A stretch of 39,149 nucleotides of DNA, taken from contig CP070820.1 of the NCBI GenBank assembly GCA_020344315.1, positions 953,977 through 993,125 of the forward strand. Direction: 5' to 3'. A program made the position numbers and the translations under genes. Source of the DNA: Candidatus Bathyarchaeum sp. Its GTDB lineage: Archaea; Thermoproteota; Bathyarchaeia; Bathyarchaeales; Bathyarchaeaceae. Under the pieces are notes generated by a model. It made no database searches. It was given only the letters and a program-made list of their open reading frames with translations, and had not been told where the DNA came from. How positions within the stretch are numbered: the stretch's first letter is position 1; the number at the start of each line of letters is the position of its first letter. Below are positions 19,457 through 38,537 of the stretch, one piece after another.

Positions 19457-19486
19457 TTTGGGTTTGGGTGTTAAAATTTAACCCCC
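19457..19486 (+). repeat. Palindromic repeat copy A, inside the island
   Basis: A TTTGGGTTT arm followed by the near-palindrome GTTAAAATTTAAC with G-rich left and C-rich right flanks (19466-19486). It is the same motif as the four copies at 36.1-38.5 kb, in the same orientation as the copy at 38511. Confidence 0.75.
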
Positions 19487-19536
19487 AAAAGAGCTCCTAA
19501 GCATATCAAATGGATGATATTATAGTCTCAATATCA

Positions 19537-19884
19537 CAATGATACTAGTAGTAATATTAGTACTAATAGCATAGTATCAATGTAGTATTACTAGTATAGT
19601 ATCAATGGCTTATGATATGGTCTTACTACCAATTCAATTTTTTTTCAAAACATAAACGAGTGCCTATTGCTTGGACTCGCATTTTTAGAGTAACATTTGG
19701 ATTGCTTTTTCACGTTAAAATGTTACTTTTCCAATTCGCGCGCATTTTCAGTCTCAAAATACTTTCAAAGTATGGTATCAAAGTATAGTACCATATGGTA
19801 GCAATTTTGGTATCATATGGTATCATTAGTACTAACTATAATCCTAATCACATTCTGTCTATATAGACACTATCTATATAGACA
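19537..19884. repeat. Iteron-like repeat cluster with operator-like palindromes
   Basis: GTATCA occurs at 19574, 19599, 19775, 19810 and 19820, and its complement TGATAC at 19540. ATAGTATCAATG is repeated exactly at 19571 and 19596. Between are many GTACTA/TAGTAT and CATATGG variants. The cluster ends in the perfect 14-bp palindrome TGTCTATATAGACA (19856-19869), followed by a second TCTATATAGA (19873-19882). This could be a replication origin, arm-type recombinase sites or a regulator array. The rest of the 19409-20079 gap shows no gene. Confidence 0.55.
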
Positions 19885-20079
19885 TTAGTCACGTGGATAA
19901 TTATCGATAGTTATAGACAACAGGGATAAAGAAATAACGAGCTGCAATATTCTTGTAATTCTCCTTGCGCGCGCTAAGAAAAGCTATCGCAGAATCAATA
20001 AAAAAGTGAACGCGAGCGACTTTTTCAACTTAACGCATCCCTTTAAAAAATCTTTCAAGCCCTTTTCCTAACATACGCC

Positions 20080-35102: not shown

Positions 35103-35172
35103 CATTGTAGAGTGTTTTTCCTTCTTTGGAGAAGAGGGGTCTGTCAGCCTTATAGTCTTCATACCAGTTAAG

Positions 35173-35224
35173 GTCGGTCTGGGACGGCTACATCATCCCC
35201 CCATAATAAAACACCGTCCCCGAC
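35173..35224 (+). other. Hairpin after the rhomboid gene
   Basis: GTCG-GTCT-GGGACGG (35173-35187) pairs with CCGTCCC-CGAC (35214-35224), an 11-bp helix with a 4-nt bulge and a 26-nt loop. No T-tract follows directly. A possible TATA-like CTTATAG lies about 25 nt upstream, so this could be a small RNA; otherwise a termination or 3' end structure. The rest of the 35103-35552 gap holds the direct repeat at 35251 and a C-rich stretch (35370-35410) without a gene. Confidence 0.35.
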
Positions 35225-35250
35225 AAATAAGATATTCGACACCCTATGGG

Positions 35251-35361
35251 ATCGCCAAAAAATGCTTAACATACACTCATACATACTATGAGCAAATAAT
35301 TAAGCCACTTTTTACGAAGAAAAGTGTTCACCACAAAAACGATTCAAAAACCTAAATGCGT
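35251..35361 (+). repeat. Long direct repeat, copy 1
   Basis: About 111 nt, some 90% identical to 36009-36120. It contains two hairpins: CTCATA/TATGAG and CACTTTT/AAAAGTG. It ends in AAAAACCTAAATGCGT, after which the two copies diverge. Confidence 0.8.
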
Positions 35362-35552: not shown

Positions 35553-35951
35553 TTGATAAGCGATAACGGGATAAGCGGACAACAGTTTTTTCAACTTTTC
35601 AGTATCCTTGTGTTCGTGGGCTTGTTTGCTGGTGGTGTTTTGATTGCATATCTTTATAGCAAAAGGGTGGAGAAACGAAAGACGCATTTGTCGAGATACC
35701 AAGAAATTCGTAAAAGATTCTTAAAGGCCGCAGTAATTGGCGGATTCTTTTCTGCATTTTGGCTGTATTCTCTTATTACCAATAATAATCCGTTGGGACT
35801 AATTGGGATACAGGCAAACCCTACGTTTGAATTCTTCTTCTTACTTTATTTATTATTCTTCGGATGGCCTTTGTTTGCACTTAGTTTGGGAATACAGATA
35901 GGCTCGCTGATTTTCCCTGTGAAAAAGCCTCCAGACTCTCTCTCTTCATAG
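35553..35951 (+). CDS. Small three-helix membrane protein between the long repeats
   Basis: 132 residues, unrecognised. Hydrophobic segments at about 14-34, 60-77 and 90-122, with a basic loop (YSKRVEKRKTHLSRYQEIRKR) after the first. TTG start with AGGAGGTG 5 nt upstream. It is the only gene between the two long direct repeats, so it probably arrived or was duplicated with them. Confidence 0.65.
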   Translation: MISDNGISGQQFFQLFSILVFVGLFAGGVLIAYLYSKRVEKRKTHLSRYQEIRKRFLKAAVIGGFFSAFWLYSLITNNNPLGLIGIQANPTFEFFFLLYLLFFGWPLFALSLGIQIGSLIFPVKKPPDSLSS

Positions 35952-36008: not shown

Positions 36009-36120
36009 ATCACCAAAAAAATGCTTAACATACGCTCATACACACTATGAACAAATTATTAAGTCACTTTTTTTACGGAAAAGTGTTCAGCACAAAAACG
36101 ATTCAAAAACCTAAATGCGT
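36009..36120 (+). repeat. Long direct repeat, copy 2
   Basis: About 112 nt; differs from copy 1 by scattered single changes, including a weakened CTCATA/TATGAA hairpin and a 1-2 nt shift in the CACTTTT/AAAAGTG loop. It is followed within 8 nt by palindrome copy B. Confidence 0.8.
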
Positions 36121-36127
36121 GCATTTT

Positions 36128-36147
36128 GGGGTTCAATTTTAACCCCC
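36128..36147 (-). repeat. Palindromic repeat copy B
   Basis: GGGGTTCAATTTTAACCCCC, one change from the consensus core, then AAAACCCAAAA on the right arm. It lies at the 3' end of the gene at 36180. Confidence 0.75.
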
Positions 36148-36173
36148 AAAACCCAAAACAGCTCTTGGGTTTT
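36148..36173 (+). terminator. Hairpin with T-tract after copy B
   Basis: AACCCAA (36151-36157) pairs with TTGGGTT (36165-36171) and runs into TTTTTATT. Suits a terminator for plus-strand transcription from the membrane protein gene. Confidence 0.45.
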
Positions 36174-36179
36174 TATTAA

Positions 36180-36575
36180 TTAAACCAATTCTGCGAGTAC
36201 TTTTTCGAGGAGCATTTCATTATTTGCTTCTTTGAATAACTGACCATATCTTTCGTTCGTGAATTTGAAAGGTATATATTTGATCTTTTTCTTCCGTAGA
36301 AAACTGCCAATTTTTTTTGTCCTCACCCAATTTCTGTGAATTGACACCGCTTCAAGACGCCCTTTAAAAAACGATCCCCCCCTTTTCAGTTCCCTAGCAC
36401 ATGTTGAACAATAAGGGAATCTGAAGATCCACTCCCCCTGATGAATACCTAAAGGAGGCATAAAATCTGCAACTCTTACTTCTATTAACTCAGAGGGAAA
36501 CAACTGACTGCATTTACAACAGGCGTTAGGTATTGTAATCGTTGGGTTATCATAAAAGACCACATTAACTATCAA
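36180..36575 (-). CDS. Cys-rich (zinc-knuckle-like) unknown protein
   Basis: About 131 residues from TTG 36573-36575. CCKCSQLF and YCSTC, 40 residues apart, look like a four-Cys metal site. The rest is basic (RTKKIGSFLRKKKIKY) and not recognised. The frame is open to ATG 36701, but those 42 codons are largely a translation of palindrome copy C (GWVWGLKFN), so they are doubtful. The TTG follows GAAGGGG by 7 nt, and the A/T core of copy C could act as its TATA box. Confidence 0.55.
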   Translation of the reverse strand: MIVNVVFYDNPTITIPNACCKCSQLFPSELIEVRVADFMPPLGIHQGEWIFRFPYCSTCARELKRGGSFFKGRLEAVSIHRNWVRTKKIGSFLRKKKIKYIPFKFTNERYGQLFKEANNEMLLEKVLAELV

Positions 36576-36640
36576 ATCAAAACCCCTTCTAAATAAAATT
36601 TGAGAAGTAGGTAATAAAACATTTGATCCACGCGTGTGTA

Positions 36641-36675
36641 CGTTAAATTTTAACCCCCAAACCCAACCCAACCAA
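36641..36675 (-). repeat. Palindromic repeat copy C
   Basis: GTTAAATTTTAACCCCC followed by AAACCCAACCCAACC. Only the left G-run is missing. Located at the 5' side of the gene at 36180 and 140 nt before the phosphatase gene. Confidence 0.75.
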
Positions 36676-36812
36676 CTACAAATCAACAACAAAACAAGCA
36701 TAGATTAACTACTCGATTCCAAATAGACAAAATTCACAGAACACCCAAACTTCAATATTTCATCAGATCATGGTCTACGAAGAGTCTATACGCTCGTAGT
36801 CATATAATCAAT

Positions 36813-37397
36813 ATGAATATTATGAAGCTTCATATTTACCTCTTCAGGCATGGTGAAACCACTTTCAATAGAACCAAAAGATTCACTGGATTGGTGAATT
36901 CGAGATTAACCCCTGAAGGAATAGAACAAACCAATCTGATAGCAGAACAACTTAAGGAGAAAAGATTTCAAATAGCCTTTAAAACAAGCCTTTCTCGTTC
37001 GTCCAATAGTCTAAAAATAGTTCTGAAATATCATCCTGAATGTAAAAGAGTCATTGTTGATGATAGAATAATCGAGAGATCTTACGGAGATCTTGAGAGG
37101 AAATATCACAAGACTGTAATAAGGAAATATGGAAAAAGACAATTTGACCTATGGCATAGATCCTATGATGTTCCTCCTCCTGGAGGCGAATCAATCAAAA
37201 TGGTTGAAAAAAGGGTTTTGTCATTCGTGAAAGCTTTACTAAGCTTACTGCAAAGGGAGAAAGTCAATGTTGTGGTTTCGGCTCATAACAATTCGATGAG
37301 GCCATTCAGAAGATATTTTGAAAACCTAACAATAAAACAGATGATGGCGCTAGAAAATCCATATGACAAATATTTTGAATATACCATAAAGTGTTAA
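36813..37397 (+). CDS. Histidine phosphatase (phosphoglycerate mutase-like)
   Basis: 194 residues. The phosphate-binding FRHGETTFNRT (11-21, His13 the phospho-acceptor), SLSRSSNS with Arg62, ERSYGDLE (88-95) and SAHNNSMRPF (157-166, His158) are those of the cofactor-dependent mutase/phosphatase branch. The gene lies alone between palindromes C and D. A hairpin (CTACGA/TCGTAG, 36775-36799) and the box CATATAATC precede its ATG. Whether it is a glycolytic mutase or a phosphatase is open. Confidence 0.85.
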   Translation: MNIMKLHIYLFRHGETTFNRTKRFTGLVNSRLTPEGIEQTNLIAEQLKEKRFQIAFKTSLSRSSNSLKIVLKYHPECKRVIVDDRIIERSYGDLERKYHKTVIRKYGKRQFDLWHRSYDVPPPGGESIKMVEKRVLSFVKALLSLLQREKVNVVVSAHNNSMRPFRRYFENLTIKQMMALENPYDKYFEYTIKC

Positions 37398-37418
37398 TTG
37401 ATCGAAACAATAAATATA

Positions 37419-37437
37419 GGGGTTAAATTTTAACCCC
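37419..37437. repeat. Palindromic repeat copy D, perfect palindrome
   Basis: GGGGTTAAATTTTAACCCC, 19 bp with perfect 9-bp arms, followed by AAACCCAAA. It lies 22 nt after the phosphatase stop and is the clearest copy. Confidence 0.85.
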
Positions 37438-37555
37438 AAACCCAAATGTTATTAACTAAAAAACTCACACATCATATCAAGTTGCGTGTGCCAGTGCACG
37501 ATAATTGATGCGATTGGCAAACCTTCTGCGCGTGCATCGTAACTATAAGCTCTGT

Positions 37556-38434
37556 TTATGGTAAAAATAGTTTCATCATCTCTATTGGATGTCTTAGACT
37601 TGCTAGAGATTGAAATGCCCCTGCAAAAGACCCACAATTGGAACAGTCTGGATTGGTCACAAAGCATTTTCTTAGGTTCCACGAAACATCAAAATGTAAT
37701 ACTTCATCCCGCCAAGCACATGAGTCTCTGTGATCCGGATATTCAAACCATTCTATCATTCGTTTGTTCAAAAGAAAATCTTTCGGGTATAATTTCATCA
37801 CCCGTTTCAGTTCTCGTATTATTGGTACTCTTTCTTTTCTTGTTACAACCTGGGGAGTACCAAAGTCTGTGTCACCTGCACATATATTGCACACAACACC
37901 TTGGAAACCATTCTCTTGTGAAAGTTTTACAACATACTCAAGATCTCTATAATTATACGGCGTTAATGTCATGTTGATAACAACTCGTTCATCCCCTAAA
38001 TAGTTCTTCATTACTCTCGAAAAAACACTTTTTCCTCTAATTGAATCGTTTGTTTTTTGAGAACCATCTATTGAAACAAATAAAGTATGATTGAATTTTT
38101 TGGGTATCTTTATTGTTCCGTTTGTAATAACGAAAACGTAAGGAAATATCTTGTCAGCGGCCATAATAACGTCAATTCTAAGCGCAGGCTCACCACCACA
38201 CAAAAGGATGTTCCTTATTCCTGACTTGTAGAGGCCATTGAACCTTTTTTTCCAAACATGCAAAGGCAGTTCTTGTGCTTTGAAATCGTTTTTGCAGTGA
38301 AAATGGTAGCAATGTTTACATCTAAGATTACAGTTATCCGTGACATCAATATCTGCATGATATTTAACTTTAAATATGGCTCTCTTTAGCTGGAGCCAAA
38401 GAGGATGAAAAAATACCTTTGAAAATTTTTTCAT
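37556..38434 (-). CDS. Radical SAM protein with C-terminal Cys motif
   Basis: About 292 residues from ATG 38432-38434. Radical SAM cluster C35-x3-C39-x2-C42 (CNLRCKHC), then CGGEPALR, VSIDGSQKTND and IRGKSVF. The C-terminal part has CAWRDEVLHFDVSWNLRKCF and PDCSNCGSFAG, a possible auxiliary cluster site. Substrate unknown. The frame is open to GTG 38509, which abuts palindrome copy E; no strong ribosome site marks either start. It lies alone between palindromes D and E. Confidence 0.82.
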   Translation of the reverse strand: MKKFSKVFFHPLWLQLKRAIFKVKYHADIDVTDNCNLRCKHCYHFHCKNDFKAQELPLHVWKKRFNGLYKSGIRNILLCGGEPALRIDVIMAADKIFPYVFVITNGTIKIPKKFNHTLFVSIDGSQKTNDSIRGKSVFSRVMKNYLGDERVVINMTLTPYNYRDLEYVVKLSQENGFQGVVCNICAGDTDFGTPQVVTRKERVPIIRELKRVMKLYPKDFLLNKRMIEWFEYPDHRDSCAWRDEVLHFDVSWNLRKCFVTNPDCSNCGSFAGAFQSLASLRHPIEMMKLFLP

Positions 38435-38510
38435 GATAGAAGTACTATTTTCACTCTGTTCATTAAGTGCTTTTCGGACAAAAAAACAGGGACCGGTAAA
38501 CAGGAACACG

Positions 38511-38537
38511 TTTGGGTTTGGGGTTAAAATTTAACCT
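38511..38537 (+). repeat. Palindromic repeat copy E
   Basis: TTTGGGTTTG arm, then GGGTTAAAATTTAACCTC (last bases diverged). Same orientation as copy A, opposite to B, C and D. It separates the radical SAM gene's 5' end from the nucleotidyltransferase's 3' end. Confidence 0.75.

Follow-up and report, generated by a model that had tools for sequence, protein, structure and literature searches.

Single unrelated genes parted one by one by the same short palindrome raise the question of whether the palindrome is the place at which such genes are exchanged or a site of another kind at gene borders. The array was found in a stretch of 39,149 nucleotides (the window, G000:C1:953977-993125) of the 1.56-Mb genome (G000) of an uncultured archaeon of the class Bathyarchaeia. 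This genome was compared with its relatives (G001, G002, G005, etc.), all of the genomes being metagenome assemblies. Little is known about the way in which accessory genes are added singly to archaeal chromosomes. A site present in many copies and used for swapping single genes would give archaea a counterpart to integrons and dif modules, and it would explain the hotspots at which small unrelated genes gather in genomes of Bathyarchaeia.

Palindromic sites in the window and in the genome

Five copies of the palindrome, A to E, were present in the window (Table 1). Four of them, at 36.13, 36.64, 37.42 and 38.52 kb, had been reported in a preliminary description made from the sequence, and all four were recovered; copy A was added. 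Scanning the window with a 30-column matrix returned the same five places and no others. At up to two mismatches, six matches were obtained versus a mean of 2.13 after shuffling, none of the 100 shuffles reaching six, and there were four exact copies versus none across 60 first-order simulations. The C-rich arm is located to the right of B, C, and D (CCCCAAACCC) and to the left of E, and an inverted repeat of 38 nt, made up of D and E, encloses the radical SAM gene. Each of the intervals B-C, C-D, and D-E contains one gene, and the three genes are unrelated and in mixed orientation, in agreement with the preliminary description. The longer open reading frame listed for the Cys-rich gene (range starting at 36180) extends through site C. 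A homologue of the radical SAM gene was found in G004:C155, where the sites are absent. The 105-bp direct repeat flanking the 132-aa gene may be the mark of an older insertion or duplication. More sites lie just outside the window, for example at G000 994178 (two mismatches).

Table 1. Palindrome copies, genes and repeats of the window (window coordinates)
Feature	Position	Strand	Remarks
Site A	19470..19482	.	Exact core; an arm on either side (TTTGGGTTTGGGT / CCCCAAAA); purine-rich tract at left
Tyrosine recombinase, PF00589	20080..21228	-	598 bp from site A
105-bp direct repeat	35257-35361 and 36016-36120		90% identical; second copy runs up to the edge of site B
132-aa gene left of site B	35553..35951	+	Flanked by the 105-bp direct repeat
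Site B	36131..36143	+	Core GTTCAATTTTAAC, one mismatch from consensus; left TTTTGGG; right arm CCCCAAAACCCAAAAC to ~36158
Unit B-C gene, small Cys-rich (CxxC) protein	36180..36563	-	No Pfam match; GTG start approximate
Site C	36642..36654	+	Exact core GTTAAATTTTAAC; right arm CCCCAAACCCAACCCAACC
Unit C-D gene, histidine phosphatase, PF00300	36813..37397	+	Stop codon 25 bp before site D
Site D	37422..37434	+	Exact core GTTAAATTTTAAC; left GGG, right CCCAAACCCAAA
Unit D-E gene, radical SAM protein, PF04055	37556..38434	-	Start approximate
Site E	38523..38535	-	Exact core GTTAAAATTTAAC; left arm TTTGGGTTTGGG
Gene after site E, nucleotidyltransferase-domain protein, PF01909	38550..39101	-

Two other features of the window were observed. 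Many short ATAGTATCAATGGTA-like repeats occupy positions 19500-20020, between site A and the integrase gene. A non-coding segment of ~107 bp at 35135-35242 has a core found in six of the seven other genomes of the genus with 83-97% identity, and it may represent an RNA not yet described or the terminal part of an RNA gene. Neither Rfam nor tRNA matches were found anywhere in the window, this segment included, and a known RNA or tRNA was therefore rejected as the target of the palindromes.

Throughout G000, 44 copies with up to one mismatch were identified, compared to two for a reversed control, and they were clustered, with 23 of 43 neighbouring distances below 4.5 kb versus 5.2 expected. Alignment of the copies gave the consensus RTTAAAWTTTAACCCC(C)AAACCCAAA, which comprises a near-symmetrical core and a variable AAACCC-type arm, mostly on one side only. 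A pyrimidine-rich flank, 80-130 bp long and occurring in related versions, accompanies some copies, and the predicted hairpins are 5-12 bp long. All 43 classified sites in the G000 loci that were fetched are intergenic, while coding sequences account for 80.5% of these loci. The median distances from these sites to stop codons and start codons were 51.5-58.5 bp and 176-194 bp, respectively, as estimated with a simple custom gene caller, for which small genes and starts are approximate; the latter distance leaves room for a promoter. Gaps with a site in G000 lie between tandem (16), convergent (15), and divergent (10) genes, an arrangement that looks random, whereas gaps without a site (240, 56, and 51, respectively) show the usual operon bias.

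Most of the units between sites are ordinary single accessory genes. Compact arrays contain open reading frames of 66, 70, and 88 aa between sites, and units of 130-400 bp exist. Several genes are present in some units, at least one of which is split by a more degenerate site (750908). An unrelated dispersed repeat of ~60-75 bp was also found in G000 (195630-195689, 1147891-1147959, and 1187003-1187083); G001, G004, and G005 contain dozens of matches to it.

Probable gene turnover at the palindromes

The units have a patchy distribution: those bounded by palindromes were present, absent, or exchanged among relatives, with several breaks in gene content at the core, which supports the cassette-like array proposed in the preliminary description. 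In three comparisons, the breaks were located at or beside the palindromic core. The first concerns G005:C45, in which a small gene and its flanks separate stretches that are near-adjacent in G000, where the gene is absent from this place; the same unit was found in G000 at 666343. The similarity between the two copies spans from half-palindrome to half-palindrome (TTAAYC-CCAAACCC to GGGGYTAAAATT) and stops inside the core at both ends. A direct repeat was not seen at this palindrome-ended unit, the flanks of which are too diverged for certainty. The second is the L15e locus, extending from the ribosomal protein L15e gene to the next conserved gene, which is empty in G002, G009, and G012. In G000, it contains genes for a 61-aa protein, rubrerythrin, and a GNAT protein, the last being bracketed by sites 1245754 and 1246418, while in G001 the place is taken by a different gene, of 133 aa, with a palindrome after it. 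From the first base of the core of site 1246418 onwards, G001 and G000 are homologous again. In the third comparison, G005:C180 matches the G000 flank through the core of site 1511579, and the genes beyond are different. The G000 homologue of the G005:C180 gene past the core adjoins site 749631; the gene has its site at one end in G000 and at the other end in G005.

Only G000 has a 2.5-kb block containing three sites, the neighbours of this block being joined in all seven relatives in which the junction was read (G002, G003, G004, G005, G015, G017, and G022). The ends of the block, at a possible 6-bp ACTCTA repeat, lie 205 and 41 bp beyond its outer palindromes. Some other changes around sites do not end at them, and site 197170 of G000 appears to be a geneless insertion of ~45 bp.

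Among junctions of four G000 loci compared with five relatives, only 2 of 61 with a site were syntenic versus 78 of 184 without a site; the p-value of this test is indicative only, because a hand-compiled table of DNA matches was used, in which fast-evolving genes score as missing, the loci were picked for having sites, and adjacent comparisons are not independent. Both syntenic site-bearing junctions represent a single gap, at which the palindrome is absent in G004 and G005. The situation that the preliminary description had set against its own reading, with the motif lying between conserved genes in unchanged order, was thus not encountered in G000. Gene turnover at the palindromes is very probably real.

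Most sites are static in G002, G006, and G007, which is expected for genomes that are ~99% identical, given the short time. No excised circle was seen, nor any recent event between near-identical strains. One break in G006 relative to G002 and G007 starts at the arm of site G002 1914563, and it was rejected as a clean unit exchange since the sequences beyond differ over kilobases. Two further differences between these genomes were recorded. At the L15e locus, G006:C5 (287330-288320) carries a ~1-kb methyltransferase-gene block, without palindromes, relative to G002 (825800-825830), and a homologue is located within the G000 unit 751953-753190. The region of G002:C1 at ~1208600-1219000 (L068) is provirus-like, with integrase and phage-like proteins and one palindrome, site 1211680; G006 and G007 matched its left flank and not the region itself.

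Proposed recombination at the palindromic core

The palindromes are probably, although far from certainly, att-like recombination sites, with the segments between them being mobile gene units and short units being integrated and excised by an archaeal tyrosine recombinase. The inverted half-site ends, the breaks inside the core, and the occurrence of either orientation would fit conservative site-specific recombination of the tyrosine-recombinase type. As would be expected for att sites with inverted half-sites, a short core, and crossover within that core, unit homology ends inside the core on both sides and resumes at the core. We estimate that the chance of a tyrosine recombinase acting at the palindromic core is even or slightly better.

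According to the proposed mechanism, the core RTTAAAWTTTAAC would act like a core site of a tyrosine recombinase, in which two half-sites lie inverted around an A/T middle where crossover would take place. The unit, which has the ends TTTAACCCC(AAACCC)n ... GGGGTTAAA, would insert at another such core or, alternatively, at a chromosomal sequence resembling half a core. Each junction of a unit would retain the palindrome, and repeated insertion would produce arrays. Since the core is nearly symmetrical, a unit could enter either way round, which would lead to the mixed gene orientation. For this process, we infer a circular intermediate, tyrosine-recombinase chemistry, and the identity of the enzyme discussed below.

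Alternatively, the palindromes could be scars or preferred att targets of larger integrative elements, such as proviruses and plasmids, the arrays being decayed leftovers of these elements and the single genes not being mobile. Integrase genes and fragments do adjoin sites, site 1211680 of G002 lies within a provirus-like region, and the inserted site at G000 197170 carries no gene. However, most units carry ordinary single accessory genes, some are very compact, and one single-gene unit occupies differing chromosomal places in G000 and G005. Moreover, a viral contig collection contained no match to the palindrome, for which reason a virus-borne system was rejected. An origin of the sites from such integrative elements is unlikely.

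Still less likely, in our opinion, are transposon-like units with short inverted ends (TTTAACCCC...) moved in trans by a transposase, as in MITEs with passenger genes, the palindrome arising where two ends meet. Inverted half-site ends, the inverted repeat formed by D and E around the radical SAM gene, the extended flank families, and the possible direct repeat at the 2.5-kb insertion, the ends of which are not palindromes, would all suit such units. Against such units, the breaks were located inside a shared palindrome and not next to a target duplication, junctions have one shared core instead of two full ends with a target duplication, and transposases were not recognised by eye among the unit proteins read.

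The least probable explanation is that the palindrome is a terminator, an operator, or a site for a chromosome-organising protein at gene borders, with ordinary turnover in coincident gaps: the intergenic position, often ~55 bp past stop codons, the pyrimidine tracts resembling archaeal terminators at some sites, and the stasis of most sites in close relatives are consistent with it, but sites occur both between two starts and between two stops, which neither a terminator nor an operator fits, syntenic junctions are rare where sites are present, the breaks are at the core itself, and the palindrome is missing at the same conserved gap in relatives.

Candidate enzymes, known systems and distribution

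If the palindromes are recombination sites, the enzyme could be encoded by one of the six tyrosine-recombinase genes or fragments (PF00589) found in G000. Three of the six are located within 650 bp of a site (p = 0.002 for random placement, with the distance chosen after inspection). The leading candidate is a 308-aa archaeal integrase encoded outside the window (G000 1192957-1193883) in its own unit, and 23 bp separate its stop codon from a palindrome. In G022, where sites are very few, the stop codon of a 56% homologue is followed by a palindrome after 24 bp, and a fragment of a 36% homologue in G005:C16 has one at 23-24 bp; no palindrome follows the stop codon of a 55% homologue in G022:C19. 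This family is common in genomes with few sites, and many of its members have another sequence after the stop codon. In four members, the stop codon is followed at 39-70 bp by a tRNA gene, and in others a tRNA gene lies directly upstream; the neighbourhood of tRNA genes is a usual place of att sites. The association with palindromes suggests that the 308-aa integrase may be the enzyme responsible. The integrase of the window, a gene near site A to which the preliminary description had not referred, was rejected as the sole enzyme since its homologue was not found in the site-rich G005, and it is a weaker candidate with a possible minor role. A concrete DNA site and a candidate enzyme are now available for testing.

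Archaeal integrons with attC sites and a few IntI genes have been described (PMC9668308), and the array resembles integron cassettes in having single unrelated genes parted by a repeated recombination-like site, a patchy distribution, compactness, and a genome that encodes tyrosine recombinases. The connection with integrons and attC sites drawn in the preliminary description found no support, however. The integron integrase (IntI) is marked by an additional domain of its own, and the three of six G000 recombinases that were scored with the integron integrase model (NCBIfam TIGR02249) reached 31.7, 41.6, and 75.4 bits versus a cut-off of 265. The attC site has the order RYYYAAC ... GTTRRRY, with its half-sites in two pairs and a hairpin that is long and imperfect, while the core of the palindrome has the reverse order, GTTRRRY-RYYYAAC. 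Since IntI was not detected at the cut-off among the three, the halves are reversed, and the hairpins are short, the integron reading is not supported. In addition, attI was not seen, the sites occupy ~27 scattered places rather than one array beside the integrase, sites and genes are found in both orientations instead of a fixed one, and each gene seems to have space for a promoter of its own.

The dif site is a 28-bp sequence whose XerC and XerD arms the host Xer enzyme recognises, and the palindrome has no sequence likeness to it. The organization of the units nevertheless appears to resemble Xer-dependent dif (pdif) modules of Acinetobacter plasmids more closely than integron cassettes, because genes are bracketed by short sites with inverted half-sites, site orientation is mixed, and the genes are shuffled between places, which in the plasmid modules are different replicons (PMC6449649, PMC13141974). 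Unlike pdif modules, the units are chromosomal and archaeal, have a 13-bp near-perfect palindrome with an AAACCC arm, and lack a XerC/XerD pair. Archaeal integrative elements of the pNOB8/SSV type (PMC8371274) use the same broad enzyme class, and family relatives of the candidate integrase are found beside tRNA genes; these elements, however, carry many genes and integrate at one or a few places in the chromosome, most of them tRNA genes, whereas the genes described here are mostly single and lie between copies of one intergenic palindrome with many copies. MITEs and REP-type repeats (PMC10969869) are likewise short, dispersed, intergenic, and palindromic, but in our case whole genes are exchanged, the breaks are inside the palindrome, and neither a transposase nor a clear target duplication was seen at palindromes. 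Nothing alike was found in the accessible literature searched, mostly journals free of subscription. The array seems to belong to a type of gene-swapping system that is undescribed for archaea, its novelty being provisional.

A 22-mer comprising the core and arm was found with up to one mismatch in 23 of 257 Bathyarchaeia genomes, while the control gave zero matches in all of them. G000, G005, and a few members of the family are site-rich. Public records with the same 22-mer mostly belong to Bathyarchaeia, and exact copies are also present in Methanomethyliaceae and Hadesarchaea, with one gene between two sites. In Hadesarchaea DG-33, a site is followed by an 88-aa gene and by another site at the stop codon of this gene. 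Sites around single genes in these lineages may move genes between them. One matching contig is labelled Clostridiales and may be misbinned. A more far-reaching proposal, which we put forward only tentatively, is an archaeal gene capture unrelated to integrons, in which the near-symmetrical core with its telomere-like AAACCC arm would let a tyrosine recombinase shuffle single genes, in either orientation and with apparent promoter room, across the chromosome and across lineages (Bathyarchaeia, Hadesarchaea, and Methanomethyliaceae).

The apparent copies in G045 were rejected as belonging to a different, longer repeat containing GTTAACATTTAACC. This repeat is conserved over at least 60 bp and occurs at ~14 places (e.g., L184, L188, and L192), often near contig ends. 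In another Bathyarchaeota assembly (L163, 2770-2795), two cores were found back to back (GTTAAAATTTAACGTTAAATTTTAAC) beside a TTTGGG arm.
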